From positions 34,170,598 through 34,234,597 of the forward strand of contig CM046858.1 of assembly GCA_025617745.1 (NCBI GenBank): a stretch of 64,000 nt of DNA, in the 5' to 3' direction. This stretch comes from Heliocidaris erythrogramma. Its lineage: Eukaryota; Echinodermata; Echinoidea; Camarodonta; Echinometridae. The first letter of the stretch is position 1; each line of letters starts with the position of its first letter. Made by a program: the position numbers and the translations under genes. Positions 4,591 to 64,000 of the stretch are shown here, in pieces. A model generated the notes under the pieces. That model did no database searches. It was not told the origin of the DNA and saw only the letters and a list, made by a program, of their open reading frames with translations.

Positions 4591-4599
4591 GTTATTTGT

Positions 4600-8958: not shown

Positions 8959-8987
8959 TTACTTAGTATATGCACAGACGAATGTAT

Positions 8988-9480: not shown

Positions 9481-9619
9481 AGAAATAAATATTTGCTCCT
9501 CGAATGGCGTGTAAAAAATATACCCCAAATTTTTAAAGAAGAAATAATAATGGAAAAGAGAAAGGAAAAAGAGGAATGACAATGAAGGGAAAACCTGAAC
9601 GTGGCTGTCAAGACAAACC

Positions 9620-9812
9620 CACAAGGGTTTTTATACAGCAACCAGGTTCCTATTTTTATTGTCAGTCTTTTTTATGTTTTAATAATTACATGCAATTTTA
9701 ATGACTATGCCCGTCTAAACACACTAAACTATATCATAATTTCTTGCATGTTAATGTTAATGATACTCTTTTATATATGAATCTGAATAAAGCTGAATTG
9801 AAAAGAATTTAA
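9620..9812 (+). mobile_element. Probable LINE/SINE 3' end fragment
   Basis: Contains AAGGGTTTTTATACAGCAAC near its start and ends ATGAATCTGAATAAAGCTGA followed by short AATTTA-like units. This resembles the GAATCTGAATA...tail ends of retroelements elsewhere in this window. It sits immediately upstream of the LINE. Confidence 0.4.
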
Positions 9813-10051
9813 TTTCATTTAATTTAAAGCGTTGCTCGCTTCGCTCGCTTGATTTCACTATCTTAACCTATGCCGGTTATATTTATATTATCAAGAAAGG
9901 GAATAGGTTTGCATCTTGTCTTTTATCCAATATTTATGCTTAATTCTTTAACTCATAAAGTGATAGTTATGTCTGCAAGGATTCGAGCAAGTTGACCTAA
10001 AATAGATGAATTTTCAGGACATTACCACCTTTTTGTGACTCCCTTTTTACT

Positions 10052-10627
10052 CAATCCTGTGAAGATATTCAACCTTCTCAACCAATTTTACCTCCTATCC
10101 CTGAAGTTAGAATACAGAATACTGTTGATGAAAGCGCTTTATATGAATCATTTAATGATACTTTTAATGGTAAAGGGTTGCATCTTGTTCATTTGAATGT
10201 TAGATCAATTCTGTTTAAAATACCTGAACTACGACTCCTTTTCTCCCAAAATAGAATCTCTGTAATTGCAATCACTGAAACGTGGTTAAACTCTTCCGTG
10301 AACGATGAAGAAGTTTGTATCGATGGATATTGTATTTTAAGACGAGACCGTGTAGGAGAACATGGTGGTGGAGTCTGTCTTTATATTAGAAATGATATTG
10401 CATTTAACGTACGAGAAGATCTTACACAAAATGATATTGAATCGTTATGGATTGACATTCTATTACCCCATACAAAACCCATTACTCTAGGTGTTGTGTA
10501 CAGACCCCCTACAGATCATTTTTTTATTGAATATCTCACTGACACCTTGGATAAATTAACAAAAGATGATGAGGTTATAATTTTAGGGGACATGAATATC
10601 TGCCTTTTGCAGCAGTCTTCATTATAA
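10052..10627 (+). CDS. LINE ORF2, N-terminal part: APE-type endonuclease
   Basis: The reading frame is open from about 10013 through the stop at 10625-10627 and lacks a clear ATG. Visible motifs of the apurinic-endonuclease-like fold are HLNVRSI, ITETWLN, HGGGVCLYIR, LGVVYRPP and LGDMN. The C-terminal endonuclease motifs (SLIDHVI and LSDH) lie in the next frame from 10646, so the ORF is split by a one-base shift. The shift falls at an A8 run (10626-10633), which could be a real mutation or a sequencing error. The enzyme nicks target DNA to prime reverse transcription. This is a retroelement protein, not a host gene. Confidence 0.85.
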   Translation, partial: QSCEDIQPSQPILPPIPEVRIQNTVDESALYESFNDTFNGKGLHLVHLNVRSILFKIPELRLLFSQNRISVIAITETWLNSSVNDEEVCIDGYCILRRDRVGEHGGGVCLYIRNDIAFNVREDLTQNDIESLWIDILLPHTKPITLGVVYRPPTDHFFIEYLTDTLDKLTKDDEVIILGDMNICLLQQSSL

Positions 10628-10645
10628 AAAAAATACAAGAATATT

Positions 10646-13039
10646 TTGAATTTAAATGGTTTGAGTCAAGTAATAACTAAACCCACTCGAACAACATCGG
10701 CCACTTCATCATTAATAGACCATGTAATCAGCAGTAGAGAAGAAAATATTTGTCAAAGTGGTGTTATTGAAATTGGCCTAAGTGATCATTTTTTAACCTA
10801 CTGCTCTAGGAAGCTAATAAGACCTGTATTCAAACAGCATAGAAATATAAATATTCGGTGTATGAGAAACTATTGTATAGATGATTTTAATAATGTTTTA
10901 TCTCGAGTCAACTGGTGTGACATATTAGAATGTAAAGAAGTAAATACTGCGTGGTCAATTTTCAAAAATATTTTCATGTCTATAGTTGATAAATGTGCTC
11001 CATTAAAACAAGTAAGAATTAAGCAAAGAACCGATAAGTGGATGAATGCTGAAATTATTTCGTTAATAAGACAAAGAAATATAGCTTTTAAAAAAATGAA
11101 AAAGGATTGTGGTAATTTAGAATTAGAAAAGAAATATAAACTTTTATGTAATTTGGTGCAAAGAAAAGTGAGACAGGCTAAAGATGAATACTTCCAAAAT
11201 CAAATTGATGAGCATAAACATGATTCTAAAAAGTTGTGGAAGAATCTGAAAGATTTAGGTTGTAAAAACAAACAAAAGAATGTTAAAGAGAATGTTATTA
11301 ATATCCAAGGGGAGTTATGTCATGATAATATGAGGATAGCGAACGAATTTAACAATTATTTCACAACTGTGGCAGAAAAATTAGCTAGTAATCTGCCAGA
11401 TAGCAACGCAAATGAATTTGGAACGGACAGTGTTAAATTACAAAAATTATACGACACTAAGGGTGTGTCGAAAGGTTGTTTTCTTTTTTCTCCTGTCAAA
11501 GAAAAGTTTGTTTTAGATGAATTAAATAAGTTGAAAATATCAAAAAGTACCGGGCTTGACTTGGTACCTGCCAGATTTTTGAAGGATGGAGCTAAATATT
11601 TGTATAAACCTTTAACTTACATTATTAACTTATCTATCTCAACTTCCACCTTCCCTGATGAAATGAAAATTGCAAAAGTAACACCCCTTTATAAAAAGAA
11701 AGATAAAACTAATGTTAGCAATTATAGACCGATTAGCGTCTTAAGTATAGTCTCGAAGGTCCTAGAGAAATGTGTGTATGCCCAATTAGAGAACTACTTT
11801 CAAGAAAACAAAATAATATACGAATTTCAGTCCGGTTTTAGAAATGGTTATTCCACTGAAACTTGTCTTATTCACCTGTTAGATTTTGTCAGGAACGAAA
11901 TTTCCCAAGGACGTTTTGTCGGGATGGTTCTTCTTGACTTGCAAAAAGCCTTCGATACCGTTAACCATAATATACTGTTAAGTAAATTAGAAGTAATGGG
12001 TTTAAATTCTGCATGTGTGCAATGGTTTAGGTCTTACTTGACCAATCGTCATCAAGTTGTCTTGTTGCAAAATGTACTCTCCGATTCTATGCCCATAAGA
12101 TGCGGAGTTCCCCAGGGGAGCATATTAGGTCCTATTCTTTTCATGTGCTACATTAATGATATGTGTGTTTGTGTCAACGACAGTAAATTACTTTTATATG
12201 TGGATGATAGTGTGTTACTATATTCTGGTACTGATCCTAAGCTGATTGGGGAAAAACTTAGCTTAGAATTATCAAACTGTGTTAATTGGATGACAGCAAA
12301 TAAGCTTAGCTTACATATTGGTAAAACCGAAAGTATTTTGTTTTGTTCGCGGGGTAGGCTGAAGTATACTGATGATTTCAATATAAGTTATAACAATCAA
12401 CTCATTAAGAGACAGGATTCTGTGAAGTATTTAGGACTAAATATAGCTAGTGATCTTTCTTGCTCAAGTTTGGTTGACAGTATTGTCAAAAAAGCTAATG
12501 CTCGTCTAAAATTCTTGTATCGTTATCAAAATTGCATGAACTTAAAATCAAGACGCATTTTAAGTTTTTCCTTAATACAATGTTTATTTGATTATGCTAA
12601 TGCGGCATGGTACTGTAGTCTAGTCAAGGTGGATCAAAACAAGTTAAAAATAATTCAAAATAAGATTGTAAGATTTATCAATCACTTACCACCAAGAACA
12701 CACATTGGGAAGAGTGAACTTGAAACAGCTGGTCTTCTTCATGTAAACCTTAGATCACAACAACTTTTAATTCACCATGTACATAAGATTTTTTACTCTA
12801 ATGCAGATCACTATATTTCAAATAATTTTACTCGCTCTTCAAGTGTTCATGGGCATGACACTAGAAATAGTCAATTTAATTTCGTAGTGCCTAAGCGGAA
12901 AGGTAAAATTGGAAATTCCTTTTATTTTAACGGTATTCTTTTCTGGAATTCCCTCCCAAATCATGTTAAGTCAGTTAAGAATTTTTTACATTTTAAAAGG
13001 GTATTGAAGCATCATCTGAAAAATGTGTCTACTCCTTAA
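10646..13039 (+). CDS. LINE ORF2, C-terminal part: endonuclease end plus reverse transcriptase
   Basis: About 797 codons. Residues 1-60 finish the endonuclease (SLIDHVI, then the catalytic LSDH). A Lys-rich linker follows. The RT domain (about residues 320-620) shows VSNYRPISVLS, QSGFRNGYST, the motif A LLDLQKAFD with its catalytic Asp, GVPQGSILGP, and the motif C YVDD active site, then NKLSLHIGKTE and YLGLNI. The C-terminal thumb and tail contain HDTRNS and FWNSLP, typical of CR1/L2/Jockey-group elements. All catalytic residues look present, so this copy is young. It reverse-transcribes its own RNA at nicked chromosomal DNA. The listed start is the first codon after the shift, not a true initiation site. 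Confidence 0.9.
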   Translation: MNLNGLSQVITKPTRTTSATSSLIDHVISSREENICQSGVIEIGLSDHFLTYCSRKLIRPVFKQHRNINIRCMRNYCIDDFNNVLSRVNWCDILECKEVNTAWSIFKNIFMSIVDKCAPLKQVRIKQRTDKWMNAEIISLIRQRNIAFKKMKKDCGNLELEKKYKLLCNLVQRKVRQAKDEYFQNQIDEHKHDSKKLWKNLKDLGCKNKQKNVKENVINIQGELCHDNMRIANEFNNYFTTVAEKLASNLPDSNANEFGTDSVKLQKLYDTKGVSKGCFLFSPVKEKFVLDELNKLKISKSTGLDLVPARFLKDGAKYLYKPLTYIINLSISTSTFPDEMKIAKVTPLYKKKDKTNVSNYRPISVLSIVSKVLEKCVYAQLENYFQENKIIYEFQSGFRNGYSTETCLIHLLDFVRNEISQGRFVGMVLLDLQKAFDTVNHNILLSKLEVMGLNSACVQWFRSYLTNRHQVVLLQNVLSDSMPIRCGVPQGSILGPILFMCYINDMCVCVNDSKLLLYVDDSVLLYSGTDPKLIGEKLSLELSNCVNWMTANKLSLHIGKTESILFCSRGRLKYTDDFNISYNNQLIKRQDSVKYLGLNIASDLSCSSLVDSIVKKANARLKFLYRYQNCMNLKSRRILSFSLIQCLFDYANAAWYCSLVKVDQNKLKIIQNKIVRFINHLPPRTHIGKSELETAGLLHVNLRSQQLLIHHVHKIFYSNADHYISNNFTRSSSVHGHDTRNSQFNFVVPKRKGKIGNSFYFNGILFWNSLPNHVKSVKNFLHFKRVLKHHLKNVSTP

Positions 13040-13449
13040 CTATATTTCTCCTCTCCTTTTTGTAGCTCAGATGGTTTTTTCCTATATTATATGACTTGTG
13101 TAACCAACGTTTATTATCGATAGTTTCATTATGATTTTCTGTATATAGTTTTTTCCGTTGAGTAAGTCTTGTTTTCACATTTATGTAATCTTCGCCTACT
13201 TTATAAAAATGTTATTATGTTTTATTTTGCTACTTTAGTACATTCTTATTACTTGTCGTACGTGTACGATAGTCTTGTAGCCGTACTAATGTGTTTTCTT
13301 AGTGTATTTTTTAATCAGTTATTTAGGTATAAGGACCCCATTGGAAATAAGCCATTTCGGCTTTCATGGGCTATCCTGTCATGGTACCTGGTTATGTTTG
13401 TATTGCAATATACCTGACGAATAAAATAAAATCAAATCAAATCAAATCA
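13040..13449 (+). other. LINE 3' untranslated region and tail
   Basis: AT-rich, no ORF; ends AATAAAATAAAATC then ATCAAATCAA units. A short palindromic stretch, AAATAAGCCATTTCGGCTTT, lies near 13347; stem-loops near the 3' end are commonly used for RT recognition, but here that role is inference. Confidence 0.6.
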
Positions 13450-14269
13450 CATGGCCGCCTGTGACCATTAGCCTATTCATATCATCACACCCTGATCATA
13501 CTCTCTGTGTGAACGGAAGATCCGATAAATGTACGTTACTAAAATCACGAGAAGGGATTGTAACAATACACTTAAACCTGTTCTTAGTATTTAAAAAAAA
13601 AAATCAAAATTTGCCCGCTTATAAAATCTAGAAACAAGACGTTTTCGATTAGCAATCATTTTTATTCCAGCAGCGGATGCCCGCATATCATAATATTTTT
13701 TGCTGCGCTCACTGAAAAGCTAGAGTGAAACTTATTGGGAAGGCAAACAAATTGGGCATGCAACGGGAGGCGGACGAATATATTTTAGAAAGGTTATAGG
13801 CCTGTGGTGTATTTTGATGACGAAATGATACTTTATCCCCAAGAGAGTGCGTTTTCCTTGCTCGCAATGTTTAGAAACAGTGTGGTTTTGGACAGCAAAC
13901 ATTTGCAACATCGAAGTATGTAATATTTGGCAGTGAGGTAACCAAATATATCATTTAAATATCTTATAAGTCCAGAGTGTATTTTGACAAAAAAACGAGA
14001 CTTCTTTTAAGGCAAGATATGGTAATTTTTGGCTCGCTCGCAAAATAAATAAAAGTATGTGTCTTGGGGTGTGTGGGTGAGGGGTGTGTATAGTCAAATT
14101 AATGTGAGCAAGAAATTTCGGCAAAATATTTTGTTCATTCCCCATCCCACTCCTCGAAACGGATTTACGCCAGTGTCATCGTACTCTCGTGGAATAAGCA
14201 GTTAGAGGTACGGTAGTAATTGTCTCGACATACATGTATTTCGAGATATTCGAGATATCTCAAGGCAAT
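13450..14269. other. Composite-element interior, no gene seen
   Basis: Unique-looking sequence between the LINE tail and the second repeat array. Open frames are short and motif-free. Confidence 0.4.
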
Positions 14270-15115
14270 GATATTGTCGCATATTCATTTTCTTCAACGG
14301 AGCTAATGTCGCGGAGGAATTGTCGCTCAAATGGAGCAAATGTTGGCGGAGCAATTGTCGATGAGCAAATGTCGCATATTCCTTTTTATCTACCATGTCT
14401 ACCGAGTTTATTGTCGCGGAGCAATTGTCGCATATTCATTTTTAACGACTGAACAATAATCATATTTTGGAGCAAATGTCGGCGGAGCAATTGTCGCAGG
14501 AGCAATTGTCGCATTTCTATCGACGGAGCATTTGTCGCTCGATCGGAGCAAATGTTGACGGAGCAATTGTCGCAGGAGCAATTGTCGCATATAAGCATTT
14601 CTGTCGACGGAGCCGTTGTCGCTCGATCGGAGCAAATGTCGACGGAGCAATTGTCGCATATTTGCATTTCTATCGACGGAGCAGTTGTCGCGGAGCAATT
14701 GTCGCTCGATCGGAGCAAATGTCGACGGAGCAATTGTCGCAGGAGCAAATGTCGACGGAGCAATTGTCGCAGGAGCAAATGTCGTCGGAGCAATTGTCGC
14801 AGGAGCAAATGTCGTCGGAGCAATTGTCGCATATTTGCATTTCTATCGACGGAGCAGTTGTCGCGGAGCAATTGTCGCTCGATCGGAGCAAATGTCGACG
14901 GAGCAATTGTCGCAGGAGCAAATGTCGACGGAGCAATTGTCGCAGGAGCAAATGTCGTCGGAGCAATTGTCGCAGGAGCAAATGTCGTCGGAGCAATTAT
15001 CGCAGGAGCAAATGTCGACGGAGCAATTGTCGCAGGAGCAATTATCGCGGAGCAATTGTCGTATTTTTAGGAGCATTTGTCGCAGGAGCAATTGCCGCCG
15101 GAGCAAATGTCGGTT
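14270..15115 (+). repeat. Array of 30-bp GGAGCAATTGTCG/GGAGCAAATGTCG repeats, orientation B
   Basis: About 40 half-units alternate GGAGCAATTGTCGCA and GGAGCAAATGTCGAC. Longer higher-order blocks begin with CATTTCTATCGACGGAGC and recur near 14512, 14665 and 14838. The block 14665-14830 is almost exactly repeated at 14838-15000, showing recent unequal exchange. Orientation is opposite to 8988-9480. Long open frames in several phases (up to 256 codons) are artefacts. Confidence 0.9.
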
Positions 15116-15334
15116 CCCCGCACAGACATTTAATTTTGCACACGGCCCGCAACCTCGGGCAAAGGAACTGTCGACGTCGACTGCTGGGGGCTGCTCTATT
15201 AGTCCCATCTATAGAAGTACGTGTAGAGTACCGATAGAGTGGGTCGCATCAAAGCTTATCTCATCAATACTTGAAAGAAAATCAATTCTACATCGCATCG
15301 CACACCGTAGATCTAAATCAAGGTTTAATTTCAC

Positions 15335-17382: not shown

Positions 17383-17390
17383 GTTGAACG
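17383..17390 (+). other. Target-site duplication, right copy (GTTGAACG)
   Basis: Identical to 7634-7641 and directly abuts the right end CACTG. It sets the exact boundary of the insertion, 60 bp before the NLR start codon. Confidence 0.85.
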
Positions 17391-17419
17391 CCTCAATTTA
17401 TCGACTCCTTACTTTATGA

Positions 17420-17435
17420 TTATCTTTTTACTCAG
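17420..17435 (+). promoter_or_regulatory. Possible 3' splice site upstream of NLR exon 1
   Basis: TTATCTTTTTACTCAG is a good pyrimidine tract plus AG. From 17436 the frame stays open into the ATG at 17451 (codons TGT CTT GAT GTC ACC), so exon 1 could have an upstream partner exon. If it does, that exon would lie inside or beyond the transposon. Confidence 0.4.
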
Positions 17436-17450
17436 TGTCTTGATGTCACC

Positions 17451-18028
17451 ATGCCTGTATCTCTAGGCGACTGGCGTGTGAGGATCGGCACATTCCTGCG
17501 ACGGCAGAAGAAAGAATGTGACTACAACTACTTTCTGAGGAAACTTTTCAGTTTAATCAAAACATCCGCGAAAGCTCAATCACCCAAAGTTAATAACAAT
17601 GACTGTAATATTACACCCTTTACGGGGTCTCCGAGTGATGTTGGTAGTTCCGATGGTAGCAAAGCTCATCATATTGGGTCTTCATGCAATGACAACAGCT
17701 CCCATTGTGACCTAAACTCTCGCTCAGGACCTTCATGTGAGGACAATAATGCTAGAGGCGATGAGGATGTCCACATTAAACATGTTAAATTTCCATGTGA
17801 CGTTGACAGTCTTGGATTAGATACTCTCACTAAGAGTGGATCTCCATGTGATGCCAAAAGCCCCTATCGTAACGCTGCCCCTTCCTCTGATGGTTCTACA
17901 ACCACATACCCCGAGTCAAGAAAGACCTGTGATGACGATGACTCTCAAGACAATGACTGTCCAGACATGACAAACATGCTCCTATTGAGATCCGGTGACG
18001 TAGAACTCAATCCTGGTCCAAATGACAC
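17451..18028 (+). CDS. NLR gene exon 1: leader ending in a 2A peptide
   Basis: The frame opens at ATG 17451 (context TCACCATGC) and runs 192 codons plus two bases to a consensus donor, CAC|GTAAGT. Residues 1-45 are basic and hydrophobic (GDWRVRIGTFLRR, FLRKLFSLI). Residues 55-170 are rich in Ser, Asp, Asn and Cys with loose repeats of SPCD/SSCND type. Residues 173-190 are MTNMLLLRSGDVELNPGP, a full match to the 2A consensus D-V/I-E-x-N-P-G-P with the usual upstream Leu run. In 2A peptides the ribosome skips the Gly-Pro bond, here after residue 189. Sea urchin NLRs are reported to carry 2A signals right at the N-terminus, so an alternative start at Met173 (17967) or Met176 would restore that layout. 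A WRxRIG motif before a 2A also occurs, to my recollection, in non-LTR elements, so exon 1 may be retroelement-derived. Confidence 0.8.
17967..18020 (+). other. 2A ribosome-skipping signal (RSGDVELNPGP)
   Basis: An 18-codon block with a Leu-rich lead-in and the invariant NPGP (18009-18020). The skip would fall between GGT (18015-18017) and CCA. The short tail before the exon end (Asn-Asp) and the phase-matched join to the death domain place the skip just ahead of the first signalling domain. Confidence 0.85.
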
Positions 18029-18480
18029 GTAAGTCTTCAAACAAACGAACCATTCTGGAACACATGTATACCTTTTAGTATTTGCTTGGAAAACTATTTT
18101 CAGAATAAAGGGGATTACAGGGTTGATTGATAATAAAAAAAGTTATAGTCTTTACTGGTTCCTTTATCGTTATCAGGTTATTTTATGCATTTTTCATAGT
18201 ATGTGCTCTTCTTTTATGCGGTATTTCAAAGTTATGTAGTTTTCTAAACCAATCAGGTTCTTTTTGTTTGGCTCCAGAAATGATTCTGAAGAAAATAAAA
18301 AATTAGATTCCATAAACAGTATATCTCTATATACTCCATCAAGTGTTTTTGAATGTGTAACTAAGTTTTTGTAACATTGTCATTATCATTGTAACATTAT
18401 CATAGTGATGTTGTAACACACGTAAAGCAATGTACTATTATTATCATATCTATTATCATTATTCTCTTGTAATGATTTAG

Positions 18481-26132: not shown

Positions 26133-27450
26133 AGGTTTTCCCGTCCAATTTCGCACTTAGTGCATGCAAGAGTATAAATAGTTCATTCAATTTCGTTATA
26201 GGGCATTCAAAAATTCAAACTAGTCATTCAAAATCGCCATAGGGCAGCCAAAAATTCGTAATGGGCAGTCAGATTCGCCATAGAGAAAGCAAAAGTGTAA
26301 AAATATCATTCAAATTCGCCATAGTGCATTAGAATTAGCACGGAAGAACACGTGACTGAAGATAGATCATTCAATTTCGCCCTAGGGTATTCATGTTCCT
26401 AACTAATGCATCCAATTTAGCTCTGTATTCACATGATTTGTAAACAGTAATACATATAAGAATAATTATAATTATGTACATTGTTTGTTAAACATTTAAA
26501 GATTAAATTCTTTAGGAATGTCCTTTGACTTCTTTCAACTCATATTTTGCTTGTCGAGTTTCTGCATTATTTATGTTTGAAAGGTCTGTTTGCGCAACAT
26601 TTAACACTTTATTGTTAACGTTCTAATTTCTATCTGCGAAATCTTTTTCAAACATTCTTTGCGCGTTCTCCCAGCGTTACATGGCCCGCTGTCTGGCCCG
26701 TGAAATCATCAATGGCTTAAAAAGAGATGATGAAAGTATTGATATGAGATAAAAACAGAAAAAGTAAATATGTTCACCATAATGAAAGAAGAAAATCCTG
26801 ATATCGTACACGTCCTATGATTTATGTCTCTAATCCTTGCATGTAATTGATGAGATGATGGAAAATAACACTAGACAATACACATTATGAAACAAAATTT
26901 ATAAAGATAAAAAGGCATATGAAATAACATATAAACATACAAAGTTTGCTTAAATTTACCAACTAGCCCAATAAGGAGCATGACAGTAAGCTGATACAGT
27001 TGCTTTTGTCCGCTTCTTGGGCCATGTGATGAATATGAAAAGAATGAACCCCCCCCCCCCCCCCCCAGCTTAAAACAAGAGTAAGCTCATAAAGTGAAAG
27101 AATGTGTAAACATGAAAAAGAAAGTGAGAAATAAAAAAAAATACATGTGCTAAATTGGATGCACAAATTGTATAACCGGATGCCCAGTGGCGAAATTGAA
27201 TGCTCTAACTTAGCTCGAGGGGGTTTCACGGGCGAACTTGGTTGCACTATGTATGAATTTGTATGACAATTGGCGAATGTGGTTGCCCTAAAGCAAATAC
27301 GAATGGCAATTGACCATCTTGGCTGCACTATAGCGAATTTGAACGGCGAACTGAATGACCTATTTACTTTTTCTCATGCACTATGGGCAAAACTGAATGG
27401 CCTATCTTTACTTTTGCATGCACTAAGTACGAAATTGGACGGGAAAACCT
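26133..27450. mobile_element. 1.3-kb inverted-repeat element ending beside the NACHT exon
   Basis: The terminal inverted repeats are AGGTTTTCCCGTCCAATTTC at the left and its perfect reverse complement at the right, both extending into loosely paired arms. Each arm is built from short repeats of the type ATTCAAATTCGCCATAGGGC. The same ends occur in the element at 51212-52246, defining a family. A poly-C run lies at 27050-27066. No transposase is encoded. Confidence 0.8.
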
Positions 27451-27479
27451 ATATTATTTTTTAAATGTTCTGATCACAG

Positions 27480-29164
27480 GTCAGATTGGTGAACACATAC
27501 CCTCACTGACGGAAGCGGAGATCAAACGGGTTGCTAAAGATGTCAAACGCTATTTATCCTTTGAGCTATGTCAGATACAGGCCGACCCGCTGAATAGTGA
27601 GCTTCTACTTCAATTTGAGCGTATCTTCACCAATCTAACGTTGATGGAAGAAGACAAGGGCACAAAACTCAAGACACCACTCCTCTACAATGACCTTCTC
27701 AAGACCAAAGTCAACGGATTCTATCCTAAACGCTTGTTAGTGGAAGGGGAAGGTGGTGTTGGGAAGACCACGCTTTGTGCCAAAATCGCTTGGGATTGGA
27801 TCCATGGAATAGGCTACCAAGATTTCAAACTGGTTCTTGTTATCTTACTCCGCAAGGCAAAGGACAAAACAGTTGGAGAGATAGTAAAGTCATATCTTTC
27901 TGACGATAATCCTGTCACGGCCAAACAACTAGACAAGTATATCCTTACAAATCCTGACGACGTCTTCCTTGTTTTGGATGGTCTAGATGAGTTTGCTGTT
28001 GATCTCAGTAGCATTCAGCAAATCGTCCACATCACTCTTAATCGGCTTTTCAAGTCAGGTAGTGTCCTAATCACATCGCGACAATGGAGATCAGATGAGA
28101 TTAGGAAGAATGCTGATCTCAGAAAGGTCTTTGCTTTCATTGTCGTAGAAGGCTTCTCTGCTGGAAACCTCGCTTCCTACATCACAAAGTTCTTTCAGCC
28201 AGACACAGCTTCCTCTGAAGAACTAAACCGATTCATATCTGGAAATGACGTGATCAGAGAAAACATGGCCCCCTATCCAATATACACAGCCATGCTGTGT
28301 ATCATGTGGAAAGAGTTTGATGGAGAGCGCCGACACGCAATGTGCAAGCTACAAACATTTTCCCAGCTTTTCGATGAGATGATTAACTTTCTAGTGGATC
28401 ATTATCTCTCGAAGCATGACACCTCATCAGCTGATACATCACTAAGTGAACGCCGTTTGGATGTTCTTCATCATCTTACTTGCATTGGTGAGATTGCATT
28501 TCAGGGCCTAAGAAAGAGGCAGCTGGTGTTCCCCGAAGAAGAATGTCAGAATTGTCGAGAGTCAGTAGATATGGGATGTAAAGTTGGAGTGCTCACTAGA
28601 GAAAAACGTATTCCTTCGCGGCGAGAAAGGAGAGAGAAATTCCGGTCGGCGGTCTCAATGGTGCAGTTTCCTCACAAACTTTTTCAGGAGTATCTATCAG
28701 GGATGTATCTTGCATCAATTTACCGCTCTAACCGTGATGAATATGCCAAGTTCTCAGCCGAAATCGTAGGGAGAAAAGAGGAATACCAATACCTACTGTA
28801 TTTCACCTCGGCTCAACAGAAGGAGGTTGGCTTGGATGTCGTATCACGTCTCATGACTCCGAGTACGCGTGCAGACGATTATCACTCCTATGACCGGTAT
28901 GACTCGCATGACATGTATGCCGCATATGACCGTTATGATGCCTCAGATGACTGGTATGACTCGTATGACCCGTATGCCTCGTATCACCCTTTAAATAACA
29001 ATGACTTTATCGTGGATGTAGCATACGAAAGCCAGGACCAAGCAGTGGCTAAATCAGTGGCGGACCATTTCTCGACCAAGTCCAGTAGGACACTGGAGAT
29101 CACGGAGAAGATGAAGGCACACACGGTATCAGCACATATCTTCGTCGTAGATCATCGTGAAGTG
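27480..29164 (+). CDS. NLR gene exon 3: NACHT ATPase and helical domains
   Basis: The acceptor is TGATCACAG at 27471-27479. Exon 2 leaves one G and this exon starts GT, so the codon is GGT and the phase matches. It encodes ~561 residues: a pre-NACHT helix (GEHIPSLTEAEIKRVAKDV), the Walker A loop EGEGGVGKTT (27743-27772), Walker B LVLDGLDEF (27968-27994), and sensor 1 GSVLITSRQW. Winged-helix and helical regions follow (LTCIGEIAFQGLRKRQLVF; VQFPHKLFQEYLSGMYLAS). NACHT ATPases oligomerise on nucleotide exchange to form signalling platforms. An unusual Tyr/Asp-rich repeat is encoded at 28873-28989. The exon ends GAAGTG|GTGAGC in phase 0. Codons upstream of 27480 are transposon and intron sequence and are not part of the protein. 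Confidence 0.9.
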
Positions 29165-29642
29165 GTGAGCATAACATAGCCTACATATCACAGCAACGTA
29201 CGTAGGCTCCTGTTCATGGAGGTTATTTAAATTTGTTACAAAGTATATAAACGAAATGAACGAAGGCATGAAATAAAAATGAGAAATTCGTTTCATAATG
29301 ATTTCATATGAAATTTTGGTTTGTTCATTTAGTTCCAAGCGAGTTTGATCTTCAGCTGTGAGCTTGTGTCTGATAAAGCAATAATTATCGTAACATTATT
29401 CTAGGTAACTTAATGATAACGGATGGACGATTTTTTTTAATATTCTGTTGTATTTGAAACCGGTAGAATCTTTATATTCATATCCTGGACATTACAATTA
29501 AAGAGTGGGATGAGAGAATGCCAATCACATGACAGGTTAAGAATAGGTAATGTTAATAAAGATGCATTGTTTGGTGCAATTTTAACCATTTACTGTTTCT
29601 ACGTTTAGATGGTAACCCTGTTTTAATATGTGTATACTGTAG

Positions 29643-49693: not shown

Positions 49694-49977
49694 AAGAACT
49701 AATATGCGCATTAGCGTGCGCCCTATCAAACTTTGATTATTGCTCTGTGGAGTTGCTAAAGTGTATTGGCCCAAAAAGTATACATGTGTCTTGAGGCTCC
49801 CGAAACATGGATGAAACATGGATGTTAAATGTTTATCTCTAAGTAATTTCATATAAAGCAGCATGCGGATCCAAGATTATATAAAAGTGGGGGTCTCACA
49901 GGCTTGAGTGTATCTTGGTGGAGGCAGGGGTGGGGCGGTTTTCCCCGTCATTGTGTAGCCACTATTTCCCGGGAATA

Positions 49978-50960
49978 AATCAAATCAAATTAAATCAAAT
50001 CAATTTATTAAACTAAAATCCGTAATTTTGGATTATCATCAACATACAAATACAAAGGAAGATTCAAAATAGGTTACAGATGATCAAAGGGGAATATAAA
50101 TCATTGAAAAATAACAAAGCAACCCAAGCTCCCCCAAACAACAACAACAACAAACAAACAAACAAACAAAAAAACAACCCATGAACAACAACACAAGAAG
50201 AGGCAAGTACAAGTTTATAATAAGGAAGATACGATACCGTATGTAGGCCTCGATCTGCCAAACTCTTCCTATAATTTACCAATTTTAATCAAGTATTATT
50301 TCTTTTTCTGTCACTGTATATATTACTGATGGAGTTGACACAAACTTGCTTATGTATATATCTCTACTCTGCATTATATATTTAAACTTGTTTAGTTCGT
50401 TGATATCTTTAAATGAAGATACTATGGTATATATGTTATGAAATAGTTTTTCTCTTTGTTCTTTGTATGATGGACATCGCATAATAAAATGAAATTCAGT
50501 TTCTAAGTCCGATTGGCAGGTGGGACATAAACATTTATTAACTTCTAAATTTTTGTGGCGTCCCTGTTCAATCATTATTTTACTATTGCTTATTCTTATT
50601 CCTAGATAGTTTTTAATATGTGACTTGTCTATATCTAATAAGTATTTTTCTAGGTTTTACGTAGGCCTATATTTCAGGTCCTTATATGTTTTGAGTTTTT
50701 ACAATATACGTCACTGTTTCCCTCGATAATTCTCTGCCAATGTCTTATATATATCTTTCTTGCAATTTTGAATCTTTTGCTCGGATTATGGACATGCCGA
50801 TGAAGGGGGGGGGGGGGGGGGGGGGTATAGGATGAAAAAGAAAATCTCGTTATAAAACCCTCCCCTTCCCTTTTTTTTTCTTTCTCAACAAGGGGCCTCC
50901 TTCCCGATGTGATGTTTTCCCTTCTCCCATGTCTACTCCTGTCAATTATTATTCTTGTCA
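49978..50960 (-). mobile_element. 5'-truncated LINE tail, minus strand
   Basis: The 3' end is marked by GATTT repeat units (AATCAAATCAAATTAAATCA on the plus strand at 49976-50005). Upstream on the minus strand, 50285-50575 encodes a C-terminal domain with CLCPTCQSDLETEFHFIMRC, a Cys-x2-Cys...His...Cys finger typical of LINE RT C-termini, preceded by RISNSKIMIEQGRHK. Frames further upstream are broken. Confidence 0.75.
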
Positions 50961-55398: not shown

Positions 55399-55407
55399 TT
55401 GTGAAAC
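55399..55407 (+). other. 9-bp target-site duplication, left (TTGTGAAAC)
   Basis: TTGTGAAAC directly abuts the element end AGGTCTGTGAAG and is repeated at 59030-59038. The other module copies have the single, uninterrupted site (CTCCCGAAACATGG at 49797; CTCGCGAAACATGG at 62884). Confidence 0.9.
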
Positions 55408-55514
55408 AGGTCTGTGAAGTTGTTTTGATATTCGTTATTCGATATTCGATATTCATTTGATATTCATTTGATATTCAAAATTGCCTAAAGTCGGATTTTT
55501 TTGGGGGGCACTAT

Positions 55515-56427
55515 GCCTGGCGCCCACGGTCCCCGATCTAATGCCATGATGACCTTGACCTTGACCCCTCAAGGTCACGGTCAAAAATGGCCCCAAAAAT
55601 GAATACTAGCTTTTTGACGAACTGAAAGTGGCTCAAAATCCAAAATTTTTTCACCCCTGCCTGGCGCCCACGGTCCCCGATCTAATGACATGATGACTTT
55701 GACATTGACCCTCAAGGTCACGGTCAAAAATGGCGCCAAAAATGAATACTAGCTTTTTGACGAACTGAAAGTGGCCCAAAATCCAAATTTTTTTCACCCC
55801 TGCCTGGCGCCCACGGTCCCCGATCTAATGACATGATGAACTTGACCTTGACCCCTCAAGGTCACGGTCAAAAATGGCGCCAAAAATGAATACTAGCTTT
55901 TTGACGAACTGAAAGTGGCCCAAAATCCAAATTTTTTTCACCCCTGCCTGGCGCCCACGGTCCCCGATCTAATGACATGATGACTTTGACATTGACCCCA
56001 AGGTCACGGTCAAAAATGGCGCCAAAAATGAATACTAGCTTTTTGACGAACTGAAAGTGGCCCAAAATCCAAATTTTTTTCACCCCTGCCTGGCGCCACG
56101 GTCCCCGATCTAATGACATGATGACTTTGACATTGACCCCTCAAGGTCACGGTCAAAAATGGCGCCAAAAATGAATACTAGCTTTTTGACGAACTGAAAG
56201 TGGCCCAAAATCCAAATTTTTTTCACCCCTGCCTGGCGCCCACGGTCCCCGATCTAATGCCATGATGACCTTGACCTTGACCCTCAAGGTCACGGTCAAA
56301 AATGGCGCCAAAAATGAATACTAGCTTTTTGACGAACCGAAAGTGGCCCAAAATCCAAAATTTTTTCACCCCTGCCTGGCGCCCACGGTCCCCGATCTAA
56401 TGACATGATGACCTTGACCTTGACCCC
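55515..56427. repeat. Left array of 144-bp units
   Basis: GCCTGGCGCC starts occur at 55515, 55659, 55802, 55946, 56088, 56231 and 56374 (spacings 142-144). Each unit has TGACCTTGACC-CAAGGTCACGGTCA and CTAGCTTTTTGACGAACTGA. Short minus-strand frames are by-products. Confidence 0.9.
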
Positions 56428-56439
56428 TGCAGCTTCTCC

Positions 56440-56727
56440 GACATCGACTCACAGATCAAATCCCATATCATCATAAGCTGCCTCGACCCAGCCCTACGCC
56501 GTCGAGCACTGAGGGACACGATATTAAACTTGAAGAGACTCCTGTCTCTCGCCAGGACATTCGAGGCGACTGAGCTCCAAGCTAAGCAGATGGACAGCAG
56601 TGGAAACCAGGTACATGCGGATTATCGCTCATGCCCTGCTCGAGGACAAATGTGCAGCCATTGCCAAAAGCTAAGTCACTTTGCTAGGATCTGTCGTTCA
56701 CGCCTCCCTGGACGACCACCTGCCTGA
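56440..56727 (+). pseudogene. Gypsy gag C-terminal part with zinc knuckle
   Basis: The frame is open from the array edge (FSDIDSQIKSHIIISCLDPA) to a stop at 56725-56727. It contains LLSLARTFEATELQA and a CCHC knuckle, CSHCQKLSHFARIC, as in Ty3/gypsy Gag, which binds RNA in the particle. The N-terminal capsid region is absent: the frame starts abruptly where the 144-bp array ends. A stop right after the knuckle separates it from a following Arg/Asp/Ser-rich region (56749-57000). It is not functional as read. Confidence 0.75.
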
Positions 56728-57085
56728 CGTCAGCAACGCAACATAGACGTGACCAACATCGCAAAAAAACATCGCTCCGCATCAAATGATCGCTCGCGTT
56801 CCTCCTATCATGAACGTGACTATCCCCGCAATCGCTCTGATTATCGCGACCGGGACTATCGTGATCGTGATCGTAATTCTTCACTGGAACGTTGCAGACG
56901 TTTCTCTCGAGAATCACGTTTCCATTCTGCCTACAAAGATAAGCCACACTCTAAGATTTACAACTTATCACGTGTCAGCTCGGTGTCAGCTCGCCGTCAT
57001 CGTCTGATAGTGACACCAACGTGTTTCACGTTCATGAATTAAGCAGTAAATATCGCCAACCCCAAGCTACCATCCGCGTTGGTGG

Positions 57086-57545
57086 TTGGTGGATACCGGC
57101 TCCCGCATCAATGTCCTGAGTGAAGCAGATTATCGCAAGCTCTCTGTCACCTCCAAGCTTCACCGATCCAACATCAAGCTGTTTGCTTACGGATCTCAAT
57201 CACCTCTTCCTATCTTGGGAAAATTTCGCTCGCTCGTCAACACCGTCGATGACTTAAAACTCATCAAAGTTCAGTTTTATGTTGTCGCCGGCAACTCATA
57301 TTCGACGTCGCTTCTCAGCTGTGAGACTGCAATAACCATAGGATTAGTGACTATGCACCAGTCAGTCAATAAACTTGATCATGTCTCCTATGATCAGGCT
57401 TCCCCCCGCACAAATAGTCACCATGATATCTTCGCTAAATATCCTACTCTAGTCGATGGCATCGGTAAACTAAAGGATCATCGAGTCGCCTTGCACATTG
57501 ATCCTAGCTTTCCCCCGTTGCGCAGTCGCCCCGCAGATTGCCTTT
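57086..57545 (+). pseudogene. Gypsy aspartic protease and linker
   Basis: The frame begins VDTGSRINVLSEADY, in which DTG is the retropepsin active site. ILGKFRSLVNT and a hydrophobic LLSCETAITIGLV follow, then the linker before RT (HDIFAKYPTLVDGIGKLKD, then HIDPSFPPLRSRP). The frame then shifts near 57535-57550 into the RT frame. Gag, protease and RT are thus in different frames with disruptions. Confidence 0.75.
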
Positions 57546-58209
57546 CCACTTTCCACGGAGAAAGGTGGAAAAGGAGCTCGATGTTCTCAAAAGAGCAGGC
57601 ATAATTGAAAAAGTGAAGGGTCCAACCCCGTGGATCTCGCCGATCGTTGTCACACCGAAGCCTAATAAGCCTGATCAAAAATCCAAGATTGACTTGAACA
57701 AGGGTTATCATCAGCTCGAACTCGACCCACAATCTCGAGCGATTACTGCTTTCGCAACCCATGTCGGAACATTTCGGTATAAGAGTTTTGGCATCACTAG
57801 TGCAGCTGAAATCTTTCAGGAGACTATCCGGCAGCTCTTGAGCGACATCGATGGTGTCCTAAACATTAGCGACGACATCTTGATCTATGTCCGATGCCAG
57901 TCTGAACATGACCGTGCACTTCATGCTGTCCTTCGTCGGCTCAGTGAAAACAATCTCGCTGTTAACAAGGCCAAGTGTGAGTTCAACTCTAGCCGCATTA
58001 ATTTCTTTGGCCACGTGTTATCGAAAGAAGGAATTTCGCCGGATCAAAGAAAAGTCCAAGCGATAGTCAAAATGAGCCCGCCTACGAATCCAAGCGAGGT
58101 CCGGAGCCTCCTCGGTATGATGAATTTCTGCGCGAGGTTCATTCCCGGCTACTCCACCATAACCGAACCGCTTCGCGAGTTGATCAAGCAGGATGCCGAA
58201 TGGTCATAG
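57546..58209 (+). pseudogene. Gypsy reverse transcriptase, internally deleted
   Basis: Carries EKELDVLKRAGIIEKV, TPWISPIVVTPKPNK, then jumps to IDLNKGYHQLELDPQSRAIT, with roughly 40 expected residues (including the R-x-C-x-D-x-R block) missing. Then come FRYKSFGITSAAEIFQE, the catalytic-type ISDDILIYV, and FFGHVLSKEGISPDQRKV and LLGMMNFCARFIP. It stops at 58207-58209 before the RNase H. The catalytic Asp residues are still present, but the deletion and truncation make it inactive. Confidence 0.85.
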
Positions 58210-58244
58210 ACTGCCGACCACGACGTCGCCCTCGACAAAAGCTA

Positions 58245-58915
58245 GAATTCATTTTTGGCGCCATTTTTGACCGTGACCTTGAGGGGTCAAGGTCAAGGTC
58301 ATCATGTCATTAGATCGGGGACCGTCGGCGCCAGGCAGGGGTGAAAAAATTTTGGATTTTGGGCCACTTTCGGTTCGTCAAAAAGCTAGTATTCATTTTT
58401 GGCGCCATTTTTGACCGTGACCTTGAGGGGTCAAGGTCAAGGTCATCATGTCATTAGATCGGGGACCGTGGGCGCCAGGCAGGGGTGAAAAAAAAATTGG
58501 ATTTTGGGCCACTTTCAGTTCGTCAAAAAGCTAGTATTCATTTTTGGCGCCATTTTTGACCGTGACCTTGAGGGGTCAAGGTCAAGGTCATCATGTCATT
58601 AGATCAGGGACCGTGGGCGCCAGGCAGGGGTGGAAAAAATGTTGGATTTTGGGCCACTTTCGGTTCGTCAAAAAGCTAGTATTCATTTTTGGCGCCATTT
58701 TTGACCGTGACCTTGAGGGGTCAAGGTCAAGGTCATCATGTCATTAGATCGGGGACCGTGGGCGCCAGGCAGGGGTGAAAAAATTTTGGATTTTGGGCCA
58801 CTTTCAGTTCGTCAAAAAGCTAGTATTCATTTTTGGCGCCATTTTTGACCGTGACCTTGAGGGGTCAAGGTCAAGGTCATCATGGCATTAGATCGGGGAC
58901 CGTGGGCGCCAGGTA
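58245..58915. repeat. Right array of 144-bp units
   Basis: Inverted relative to the left array; GGCGCCAGGCAGGGG words recur at ~144-bp steps (58326, 58471, 58616, 58761, and a truncated one at 58905). Confidence 0.9.
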
Positions 58916-59029
58916 TACGTCAAAAAAAAATCCGACTTTAGGCAATTTTGAATTTCAAATGAATATCAAATGAATATCAAATGAATATCGAATATCGAAT
59001 AACGAATATCAAAACAACTTCACAGACCT

Positions 59030-59038
59030 TTGTGAAAC
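59030..59038 (+). other. 9-bp target-site duplication, right (TTGTGAAAC)
   Basis: Identical to 55399-55407. The sequence continues ATGGATT as in the empty sites. The second tandem unit repeats it at 60644-60652. Confidence 0.9.
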
Positions 59039-59350
59039 ATGGATTTCAAGTTCCATCTGTAAGTAATTATTAAAATAAAAGTACCATGGGGATCCAAGAT
59101 TATATAAAAGTGGGGGCTCCACAGAGTATATCTTGGTTGAGGCAGGAATAGGGCAGTTTCCTCGTAATTGTGTAACCTCCTTTTCCGGGAATAAGAAACC
59201 AGCAATCGCATCGACTCTCTTGCTCAGATCATGGACCCTACCGATGAAAGGGGGGGGGGGGGGGGGGGGAGGGAAATATAGGATTAAAAAAAAAAACAGT
59301 TAATAACCGCCCAGTTTATTGCACCGTTTGGACAAGGCAGATAAAGAAAT

Positions 59351-59826
59351 CTCGAGCGATTACTGCTTTCGCAACCCATGTCGGAACATTTCGATATAAG
59401 AGTTTTGGCATCACTAGTGCAACTGAAATCTTTCAGGAGACTATCCGGCAGCTCTTGAGCGACATCGATGGTGTCCTAAACATTAGCGACGACATCTTGA
59501 TCTATGTCCGATGCCAGTCTGAACATGATCGTGCACTTCATGCTGTCCTTCGTCGGCTCAGTGAAAACAATCTCGCTCTTAACAAGGCCAAGTGTGAGTT
59601 CAACTCTAGCCGCATTAATTTCTTTGGCCACGTGTTATCGAAAGAAGGAATTTCGCCGGATCAAAGAAAAGTCCAAGCGATAGTCAAAATGAGCCCGCCT
59701 ACGAATCCAAGCGAGGTCCGGAGCCTCCTCGGTATGATGAATTTCTGCGCGAGGTTCATTCCCGGCTACTCCACCATAACCGAACCGCTTCGCGAGTTGA
59801 TCAAGCAGGATGCCGAATGGTCATAG
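59351..59826 (+). pseudogene. Duplicated gypsy RT 3' fragment
   Basis: The copy of 57734-58209 in the second tandem unit. It starts mid-domain at SRAITAFATHVGTF and keeps ISDDILIYV and the same stop. It has no start of its own. Confidence 0.85.
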
Positions 59827-59859
59827 ACTGCCGACCACGACGTCGCCTCGACAAAAGCT

Positions 59860-60643
59860 AGAATTCATTTTTGGCGCCATTTTTGACCGTGACCTTGAGG
59901 GGTCAAGGTCAAGGTCATCATGTCATTAGATCGGGGACCGTCGGCGCCAGGCAGGGGTGAAAAAATTTTGGATTTTGGGCCACTTTCGGTTCGTCAAAAA
60001 GCTAGTATTCATTTTTGGCGCCATTTTTGACCGTGACCTTGAGGGGTCAAGGTCAAGGTCATCATGTCATTAGATCGGGGACCGTGGGCGCCAGGCAGGG
60101 GTGAAAAAAAATTGGATTTTGGGCCACTTTCAGTTCGTCAAAAAGCTAGTATTCATTTTTGGCGCCATTTTTGACCGTGACCTTGAGGGGTCAAGGTCAA
60201 GGTCATCATGTCATTAGATCAGGGACCGTGGGCGCCAGGCAGGGGTGGAAAAATTTTGGATTTTGGGCCACTTTCGGTTCGTCAAAAAGCTAGTATTCAT
60301 TTTTGGCGCCATTTTTGACCGTGACCTTGAGGGGTCAAGGTCAAGGTCATCATGTCATTAGATCGGGGACCGTCGGCGCCAGGCAGGGGTGAAAAATTTT
60401 TGGATTTTGGGCCACTTTCAGTTCGTCAAAAAGCTAGTATTCATTTTTGGCGCCATTTTTGACCGTGACCTTGAGGGGTCAAGGTCAAGGTCATCATGGC
60501 ATTAGATCGGGGACCGTGGGCGCCAGGTATACGTCAAAAAAAAATCCGACTTTAGGCAATTTTGAATATCAAATGAATATCAAATGAATATCAAATGAAT
60601 ATCGAATATCGAATAACGAATATCAAAACAACTTCACAGACCT
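59860..60643. repeat. Duplicated right array and foldback end
   Basis: The second-unit copy of the 144-bp array (about 4.6 units) ending in GATATTC-type repeats and CTTCACAGACCT. Confidence 0.9.
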
Positions 60644-60960
60644 TTGTGAAACATGGATTTCAAGTTCCATCTGTAAGTAATTATTAAAATAAAAGTACCA
60701 TGGGGATCCAAGATAATATAAAAGTGGGGGCTCCACAGAGTATATCTTGGTTGAGGCAGGAATAGGGCAGTTTCCTCGTAATTGTGTAACCTCCTTTTCC
60801 CGGGAATAAGAAACCAGCAATCGCATCGACTCTCTTGCTCAGATCATGGACCCTACCGATGAAAGGGGGGGGGGGGGGGGGAGGGAAATATAGGATTAAA
60901 AAAAAAAACAGTTAATAACCGCCCAGTTTATTGCACCGCTTGGACAAGGCAGATAAAGAA

Positions 60961-61232
60961 AGTTAACCTTATTATATGAAATAATATTTATAGAACTATA
61001 AAAACTTTCTCCAAAGTGTAATGTTTTTTTATACGGACTGTATAGTTACAGCCTATTCATTGGTCCTCCAGTCAACTGGTGCCATCCATGTGTCTTACAA
61101 CGCTAACGTCATTGCCTTTGTTTTCATAGCAATTGCTAGCGTTTTGCTAGTTTTGTAGTTAAGGCCCATTGTTCCTGCAGTTCATTGCTCTTACAGCGAA
61201 TTGGTCCTACAAGCATCACTCCAACCCATCTA
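60961..61232. other. Module flank
   Basis: Resumes the AATAATATTTATAGAACT-type sequence seen at 52560-52600 after the tandem duplication, then CTTACAGCGAATTGGTCCTACA, cut to its sense, related to 44260-44280. No gene. Confidence 0.4.
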
Positions 61233-62125: not shown

Positions 62126-64000
62126 TAGAACGGAGATTCATAATACATTTATTCATGAACAACCTAGTGGTAGAACCAAGCACCACCCCCGTCCACAACT
62201 TTCAACAGTTAATATCAATATTATCCCCAAATGAGAGCTGCATGATACATGCAAAATGACCCGTTTCACTTTAAAACGTTTCCTGTATGTCTTGTTCATG
62301 TTTTACCGACATTATGCTGCATCATAATATTTCCTGTATTGCTCTGCTGTCATCCTCTGCTGTTAGCCAAGCCAGTGAAAATTGATTTATTTCGTCGCAG
62401 TACATTTATGTATTGTCCTCTAAAACGCCTCAACAATCCTATATAGAAGCAATCAAATATGGAAATAGGTTTATATTTATTTACTTATTAATTATTGAAA
62501 CATATTTATTGAGGATGAAACATGACCAGCAAAAGCTATTTTACCTCATGGCACTGGTTAAGGGACATTATAGAGCATTAAAAACTTTTTTGAATACAAC
62601 AGAAAATACAAAATATCATATAGCACATTACAATAATGCATCACATTTACTGTAGCGTATTAACATGAAAACAAAACTATGATATGATAAAGAAAAGTAA
62701 GAGGATGAGGATGAGACAAAAGTGACAAGGTTGGAAGAGAGAGAGAGAGAGAGAGAAGAAAGAACTAATAATAAACACAAATAGGACAATATGCGAATTA
62801 GCGTGCGCCCTATTAAAATTTGATTATTGCTTTGTGGAGTTGCTAAAGTGTATTTGCCCTACAAGTATACATGTGTCTTGAGGCTCGCGAAACATGGATG
62901 ATAAATGTTTATCTGTAAGAAATTTCATATAAGCAGCATGCGGATCCAAGATTTTATAAAAATGGGGGTCTAACAGGCTTGAGTATATCTTGGTGGAGGC
63001 AGGGGTGGGGCGGTTTCCCCCCGTCATTGTGTGACCACTTTTCCAGGGAATAAATCAAATCAAATCAAATCAAATCCAATCAATTTATTGAACTAAAAAT
63101 CCATATTTGTTTATTATCATCAAGACAAAGGAAGATTCAATATAGGATATAGATGATCAAAGCAGAATATTAATCATGAAAAATAACAAAGCAACCCAAC
63201 CCACCCCCAAACAACTACAAACAAACAAACAAATAAAAACAACCCTGAACAACAACACAAGAAGAGGCAAGGACAATGTTATAATAAGGAGGATACGATA
63301 TATATGTCGGTCTCTGCCAAACTCTTCTATAATTTACCAATTTTGATAGTGTATTATTTCTTTTTCTGTCACACTATATATTACTGAATGATGGAGTTGA
63401 CACAAATCTTGCTGATGTCATAGTCGCTACTCTGCATTATATATTTAATCATGTCTAGTTCGCTCATATCTTTAAATGATATTATGGTTATGAAATAATT
63501 TATCTCTTTGTTCTTTGTATGATGGACATCGCATAATAGAATGAAATTCAGTTTCTTAGTCCGACTTAGTCCGATTAGCAGGTGGGATATTATCGTTTAT
63601 TAACTTCTAAATGTTGGGGCGTCCCTGTTCAATCATTAATTTACTATTGCTTATTCGTATTCAGAGGTTTTAATATGTGACTTGTTTATATTTATTAATA
63701 AGCATTCTTCTAGTTTTTACGTATATTTCAGGTCCTCATAAGTTTGCTACAATATACGTCACGTCACTGTTTTCGTCGATAATTCTCTGCCAATTTCTTA
63801 TATATCTTTCGTGCAATTTCAAATCTTTTGCTCATATTATGGGCCCTACCGATAAAAGGGGGAGGGAGGTGTGGGATGAAAAAGAATCTCTCGTCATACA
63901 ACTCCCCCCTTTTTTTTCAGCAAGGGGCCGGGCGACACCCCCCCCCCCCTATGTCTACTCCTTTAAATTATTATTCTTGTCAATGAATGGAAGCTTACTT
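62126..64000. repeat. 3-kb module, copy 2 (continues past window)
   Basis: The partner of 48580-50990 without the palindromic insertion; includes the (GA)n tract at 62735-62758, ATCAAATCAA tail units at 63054-63078 and a decayed minus-strand LINE C-terminus (63340-63620). It also ends at the same GAATGGAAGCTTACTT phrase as 50962-50977. Confidence 0.85.

Follow-up and report, generated by a model that had tools for sequence, protein, structure and literature searches.

A 64,000-nucleotide stretch of the genome of the sea urchin Heliocidaris erythrogramma (contig CM046858.1, positions 34,170,598 to 34,234,597 of the forward strand; this whole stretch is referred to as the window hereafter) harbors, at its positions 55408–59029, a foldback element enclosing a part of the coding region of a Ty3/gypsy retrotransposon. 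There is good reason to believe that this element is a member of a multicopy foldback family which carries a single captured gag-pol open reading frame (ORF) and has been spread in trans with that ORF as a mere passenger, the window copy being one of its deletion derivatives. The evidence behind this reading comes from the arm anatomy and target duplications of the family, from cargo edges common to its longer copies, from relatives of the cargo that still possess long terminal repeats (LTRs), and from a stop codon found at different insertion sites. A DNA transposon can, on this evidence, capture and amplify the nearly complete coding part of a retrotransposon with ORF-precise edges, and annotation of transposable elements (TEs) relying on LTRs, or capture censuses that drop TE cargo, would miss such elements.

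Anatomy and genomic distribution of the foldback family

The features of the element and its surroundings, in window coordinates, are as follows (TRF, Tandem Repeats Finder; RT, reverse transcriptase; aa, amino acids).

49701–49978, + strand: paralogous site without the element, ~11 bp extra at the target; aligns to the joined flanks
55399–55407, + strand: left copy of the 9-bp target duplication TTGTGAAAC; exact match to 59030–59038
55408–55513, + strand: left terminal domain of the inverted repeat, starting with AGGTCTGTGAAG; exact 15-mer end, n = 321 genome-wide
55514–56428, + strand: left arm, ~6.4 tandem units of ~143 bp; TRF, 96% matches
56429–58236, + strand: gypsy cargo with internal deletions and broken frames; alignment to the cargo of copy L048
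56431–56724, + strand: gag piece with a CCHC-like knuckle, CSHCQKLSHFARIC (knuckle by eye); reading frame
57050–57601, + strand: protease piece (DTGS motif by eye) plus linker; 184-aa open frame
57508–58206, + strand: RT piece, 233 aa; RVT_1, E 1.1e-15
57731–59349, + strand: first copy of a tandem duplication (3' part of the cargo, right arm, right end and ~320 bp of flank)
58207–58209, + strand: TAG stop, also present at five further foldback loci; the LTR relative has TGG here
58237–58913, − strand: right arm, ~4.7 tandem units of ~145 bp, inverted; TRF and inverted-pair search
58914–59029, − strand: right terminal domain of the inverted repeat, closing with CTTCACAGACCT; end match
59030–59038, + strand: right copy of TTGTGAAAC; exact match to 55399–55407
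59348–60961, + strand: second tandem copy, including a right end of its own (60632–60643); 99% identical to the first
62788–63053, + strand: empty paralogous site (GGCTCGCGAAACATGGAT, no insert); aligns to the joined flanks

An initial annotation, made from the letters of the window, had proposed inverted ends at 55408 and 59029, arms of 144-bp subrepeats and a foldback identity for the element, and all of this holds: the terminal repeats match one another for the initial 69 bases, the arms consist of 143–145-bp tandem units (TRF) on both sides, the 25 listed inverted pairs between them are 85–99% complementary, and a 9-bp duplication encloses the whole. Within the window, AGGTCTGTGAAG occurs at one site and its complement at two (59018 and 60632), the chance expectation being ~0.008. 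The same annotation had read the duplication together with two empty paralogous sites; the duplication is exact, and the joined flanks of the element align both to the site at 62.9 kb, which is insert-free, and to that at 49.8 kb, which has ~11 bp extra resembling a local repeat. It had overlooked that 57731–59349 recurs as 59348–60961 with just 10 substitutions and 7 gap columns over 1620 columns, a repeat that stems either from a recent tandem duplication or from the placement of two haplotypes end to end. The arm units (55514–56428 and 58237–58913) contain, as spotted by eye, TCAAGGTCA motifs, which we take to resemble nuclear-receptor half sites, and a TGGCGCC, which presumably resembles a retroviral primer site.

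A search for further elements with the same ends, along with a list of their cargo, had been suggested as a check, and when performed over the 1.06-Gb genome it revealed both a gypsy and a second cargo class. Allowing at most two mismatches, the 27-mer end pattern was found at 408 places genome-wide (0 for the reversed control), and the exact 15-mer end, split by its preceding base, at 62 + 100 + 72 + 87 = 321 places, among which there are 62 opposed end pairs less than 20 kb apart, with a median span of 2.86 kb (range 274 bp to 15.7 kb). In the sample fetched (20 of the 33 regions defined from 40 scored end matches), five regions had gypsy cargo, eight another cargo and five arms only, while two (L042 and L047) were not assigned. 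Comparison of 14 cargoes, that of the window included, separated six gypsy cargoes (window, L034, L035, L038, L043 and L048) from eight that have a common other sequence; this second class is seemingly non-coding, and a six-frame scan (X at stops) of L040, its sole cargo scanned, gave only a Spo7_2_N match at 0.0021, below the cut-off, and no transposase. Since the middle domain is unrelated between members, and since long inverted repeats made of tandem subrepeats are seen in the window element and its relatives alike, these are foldback elements by the usual description. Taking the union of the end, edge, RT and codon searches, at least 23 foldback loci have cargo of one and the same Ty3/gypsy lineage.

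Some members have additional peculiarities. An inner ORF piece in L050 (2068–7469) matches QRICH1 below the curated cut-off and is, we presume, Crypton-like, and the gypsy cargo of L048 is interrupted, at ~3637–4602, by an insert of 965 bp whose ends are inverted (TCCCTGATAGCAGAAAGTG) and which is not present in L035, L038 or L043.

Cargo edges and the source of the captured sequence

The interpretation of the window cargo as frame-broken gag-protease-RT coding DNA can be retained, whereas the accompanying claim that this very copy had captured it as a fragment cannot, as longer copies hold nearly the whole ORF. The window copy retains stretches that fall between ~342 and ~2286 in the coordinates of the longer L048 cargo, and it lacks ~110 bp of the RT; at a Pfam threshold of 0.001, neither the gag piece nor the protease piece of the window copy had a match, and the Asp_protease_2 match in the L048 cargo falls under its curated cut-off. 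The sharp cargo edges, previously taken for capture edges, lie at arm phases 56 and 101, and not at the phases 38 and 50 seen in the longer copies. A capture event in the window copy itself was considered as well and was rejected in view of these other cargo edges of its longer relatives. Judged from the alignments, the window copy would then be a deletion derivative of the family, its sharp edges having presumably been created by later deletions.

In the fetched copies keeping both edges (L038, L043 and L048; n = 3), the arm units break at phase 38 on the gag side and at phase 50 on the other, and L035, which is truncated at the gag side, also shows phase 50 on its other side; the identical phases of the former three make a single capture likely. 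The 5' edge of L048, used as a query, found arm and gag joined at 15 places, four more places at which the match starts no earlier than the first base of the ATG and at most four bases farther in, and four that match only deeper in gag (two of them in L034) and are foldback by their ends or arms (best 39 of 263 candidates). The 3' edge query matched over cargo and arm in full at 11 places and partially at 2, and over the cargo alone at C4 (best 39 of 328 candidates). That the arms and the cargo had been joined by an assembly error is thus scarcely credible, even though the repeat of 57731–59349 and 59348–60961 could be two haplotypes set end to end, because the same junctions are seen on several contigs (15 places for the 5' edge, 11 for the 3' edge) and because four gypsy-bearing elements have clean 9-bp duplications.

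The longest foldback cargo extends from the ATG of the polyprotein to two residues short of its stop and has no LTR, primer site or leader, and the arm units of L038, L043 and L048 directly abut the cargo on both sides, at the ATG and at the 3' edge, an arrangement that is not that of an LTR retrotransposon. The C4 ORF ends in FSVRS and a stop, whereas the foldback cargo ends at the V codon plus one base and is followed by arm sequence, so the captured stretch corresponds to the gag-pol ORF minus two residues and the stop.

A parent gypsy element had also been recommended for a search, and LTR-bearing relatives of the same lineage are indeed present in the genome, that is, a source of the cargo exists outside the foldback family. 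Four LTR-side relatives were found by the 5' edge query (C1, C14, C4 and C5); in C1, C14 and C4, a ~200-bp LTR ending in CATTACA is followed by TTGGCGACGA, and C5 has the leader alone. Their start codon is ATG in C1 and C5, ACG in C14 and deleted in C4. Foldback cargo and LTR-side copies are 88–98% identical over 43–141 bp at the 5' edge and 96–97% identical over 140 bp at the 3' edge, where foldback copies are 97–98% identical among themselves. Among the best 132 of 5469 candidates of an RT search, 12 matches reached at least 93% (apart from one 37-aa fragment of the window), and these represent the C4 LTR copy and 10 foldback loci, one of which, the window, accounts for two of the matches; the next family follows at 56%, and an eleventh foldback locus with this RT (C2:29.11M) was recognized from its codon pattern. 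An exact end in the right orientation lies within 12 kb at 9 of the 11 foldback RT loci and is absent from the C4 LTR copy. C4, the one RT-keeping LTR relative found among those same 132 candidates, has a purine tract and two LTRs ~92% alike and ~5.9 kb apart; it may be flanked by a 5-bp duplication consisting solely of G, and the ~2.5 kb past its stop is without a long open frame on that strand (a domain search was not made there).

Such relatives, and the frequency of internal deletions in these elements, would be compatible with a nested insertion, in which a complete LTR gypsy had entered a foldback and both of its LTRs were later deleted. We nevertheless regard this history as unlikely. 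The initial annotation had described the cargo as LTR-free and had named copies with LTRs as the observation that would favor nesting; the long LTR matches (12 places at 11 loci, all 14 candidates scored) include none within a foldback, as each of the 12 places lies, by eye, more than 200 kb from any of the 321 exact ends. Two separate deletions would moreover be required, each of them reaching just as far as one end of the ORF and fusing it to an arm, and L038, L043 and L048 have identical edges.

Capture of the ORF would instead have happened once, in an ancestor, when a gap between the arms was filled with the Ty3/gypsy coding region, beginning with its start codon and lacking just the final two residues and the stop. 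The route might have been gap repair or a replication fork switching template at 3-bp microhomologies, namely the ATG at the 5' edge and an AAG (after one mismatch) at the 3' edge.

Mobility and decay of the captured cargo

Over the 26 elements tested, the 9-bp duplication was exact in 15, had one mismatch in 3 and was absent in 8. Exact duplications flank four of the gypsy-bearing elements (window, L038, C2:66.66M and C2:29.11M) and are of four different sequences; one mismatch is present at L043, and no duplication is seen at L035, C10:27.92M and C1 (L048). Elements free of gypsy sequences have exact 9-bp duplications as well (the arms-only L036, L039 and L044, and L031, L037 and L049 with other cargo), which indicates that the mobility machinery is independent of the gypsy cargo. 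Across the family, the duplications have no common sequence. The sequence GTTTGAGCG is the duplication of three elements, L031 1001–5326, L037 1001–3956 (as the reverse complement) and C6:42273484–42280728, which may therefore sit in one host repeat or duplicated segment.

The integrase of the gypsy cargo was also considered as the mobilizer and was rejected as the main reading, the 9-bp duplications being made with or without gypsy and a stop-bearing lineage having spread. The element is foldback by anatomy and works like a Mutator/Foldback element by its duplication size and arm structure. As for its designation as resembling a Mutator-like element (MULE), the part concerning a duplication of ~9 bp stands (15 of 26 exact, 3 of 26 with one mismatch), but the proposed search for a transposase-bearing relative produced no link, so actual MULE membership, which the duplications and the arm structure suggest, is not established in the sense of a transposase tied to these ends. 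The family is apparently non-autonomous and was probably mobilized in trans by a Mutator-type transposase.

The codon near the end of the RT domain is informative in this regard: it reads TGG at 4 foldback loci, as it does in the C4 LTR copy, TAG at 6 foldback loci (7 places, the window being counted twice), and AAG, one step away from TAG, in L048. With TAG at several foldback sites and TGG in the C4 LTR copy, the stop is one that arose after capture and is now found at several sites, which, together with the 9-bp duplications of gypsy-free elements, makes the cargo most likely a passenger moved in trans, gypsy proteins presumably being irrelevant to its mobility. An internal deletion (~811–2555 of the L048 cargo) is common to L035, L038 and L043, and the window and L034 have others. 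After capture, the chimera would thus have been amplified by ordinary transposition with 9-bp target duplications, the Mutator-type transposase acting in trans, and its copies would have decayed as they accumulated internal deletions, frameshifts and stop codons; the window copy would be a deletion derivative of this kind, its right half having been duplicated later.

A different history, in which the founder was a working hybrid that expressed the captured gag-pol ORF from its arms, was aided by it in its spread and has mostly lost it since, appears improbable to us. The cargo edges do coincide with the ORF start and nearly with its end (which is why a founder expressing the captured ORF is kept under consideration at all), the ~4.1-kb cargo of C10 approaches the open frames of ~1290–1400 codons seen in many related gypsy copies, and the ancestral Trp codon has been kept at 4 foldback loci. 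The lineage bearing TAG, however, sits at six loci, gypsy-free elements have the same 9-bp duplications, and differences among the copies look roughly neutral. Gypsy integrases make duplications of 4–6 bp, which is a further argument against such a founder. Similarly doubtful is a class I/class II hybrid, i.e., a DNA element that for a time made retrotransposon particles and enzymes for its own use or for its LTR relatives.

A number of observations do weigh against the single capture of a passenger ORF and its spread in trans, which we prefer. Eight of the 26 elements tested have no duplication, three of the eight gypsy-bearing ones among them (L035, C10 and C1), from which recombination between copies seems to be common. 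The controls for the 15-mer end gave 0 in three of the four prefixes and 1 for the A-prefixed pattern, and C2:38.25M and C2:33.43M have no exact end within 12 kb, being foldback by the arm–gag junction only. The edge microhomologies amount to merely 3 bp, and both cargo edges lie at ORF ends, which exceeds what random capture predicts: by a rough post hoc estimate, with ~5.9 kb between the LTRs of C4, two random breaks would fall so near the start and the stop in ~1 of 100,000 cases, although selection on which captures amplify could also yield edges this precise. No transposase with these ends was found, as none of the 31 genome-wide PF10551 (MULE) places lies inside an exact end pair, their closest approach to an exact end being 25.4 kb. 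Finally, the roughly neutral appearance of the coding differences among foldback cargoes is based on 12 comparisons with L048 (the WIN2 row left out) that total 30 synonymous against 75 non-synonymous changes; these comparisons are few in copies and non-independent, L048 being reused in every one of them, and they differ by region, the protease-RT part of L034 and the gag of L038 and L043 leaning synonymous and RNase H leaning non-synonymous; a strong signal of post-capture selection was not found in these comparisons, which constitute a weak test.

The at least 23 foldback loci compare with four gag-bearing LTR-side copies, one with RT, among the best candidates scored, and the source lineage is thereby outnumbered by its captured form, while the datable edges and the post-capture stop allow capture, amplification and decay to be ordered.

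Elsewhere in the window, a second foldback-like element (8972–15127) has 15-bp tandem-repeat arms at 8988–9253 and 14846–15111 that are 99% complementary; the + strand of the window has just two occurrences of the 8-mer GCACAGAC, at 8972 and at 15120, each bordering an arm on its outer side, like an 8-bp target duplication. This element, which to us resembles the sea-urchin TU elements, encloses a long interspersed nuclear element (LINE) with endonuclease and RT domains at 10010–13039. An ORF at 17388–18029 without a Pfam match has DVELNPGP near its end, presumably a 2A-peptide motif, and a 606-aa ORF at 27359–29176 contains a NACHT domain (E 7.7e-21); taken together, these two ORFs would be in keeping with a genome of the echinoderm type.

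Comparison with known systems

A foldback element or MULE with a gypsy gag-pol ORF was not found among the open-licence papers listed when titles and the starts of abstracts were matched by words. Capture of the Pack type is less rare in animals than the initial annotation, which had called it "rarely described", would imply, as 370 Pack-TIRs (TIR, terminal inverted repeat) are reported from 100 animal genomes, with cargo defined as non-TE sequence, no Pack-MULE in the reference genomes and a family from fly populations, Ssk-FB4, classed as Pack-MULE (PMC8277862). For these elements, Tan et al. propose gap filling in the case of single-copy Pack-TIRs and fork switching followed by transposition in the case of multicopy ones, the median edge microhomology being 2 bp (PMC8277862). 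Like Ssk-FB4 and the Pack-TIRs, the family described here is a DNA transposon with DNA copied from elsewhere and microhomology at its edges, and, like Ssk-FB4, it is multicopy with distinct duplications, those of Ssk-FB4 being 9–10 bp long; unlike the Pack-TIRs, whose cargo is non-TE by definition, it carries nearly the whole ORF of another transposon (PMC8277862).

Closer anatomical parallels are found among foldback elements. Tm1, a Mutator/Foldback element of root-knot nematodes, likewise has composite inverted repeats with a variable number of tandem units, 9-bp duplications and several classes of inner sequence, but its units are 13–15 bp long and one of its classes has a MULE-like transposase, as opposed to the ~144-bp units, the absence of a found transposase and the one cargo class consisting of a retrotransposon ORF here (PMC3169594). 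The Drosophila virilis foldback Tetris is similar in its ~220-bp tandem arm units, its 8–10-bp duplications and in that no transposase was found for it, Mutator having been suggested from the duplication size; it differs in that no retrotransposon coding cargo is described in the excerpted text (PMC4079207).

Ginger elements also have inverted repeats, flanking a gypsy-like integrase, yet those of Ginger1 are 40–270 bp long and accompanied by CCGG or CCGT duplications, and no reverse transcriptase is named in the abstract (PMC2836005). The family described here has 9-bp duplications without a common sequence and a gag-pol cargo that is, at its edges, 88–98% identical to LTR gypsy over 43–141 bp; it is not Ginger, because its duplications are 9 bp long and neither CCGG nor CCGT.

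The family thus works like a Pack-MULE, yet its Ty3/gypsy gag-pol cargo puts it outside the non-TE clause of the animal Pack-TIR definition. Pack-MULE-like capture as such is known in animals; what sets the present family apart is that nearly the whole ORF of a retrotransposon is the cargo.

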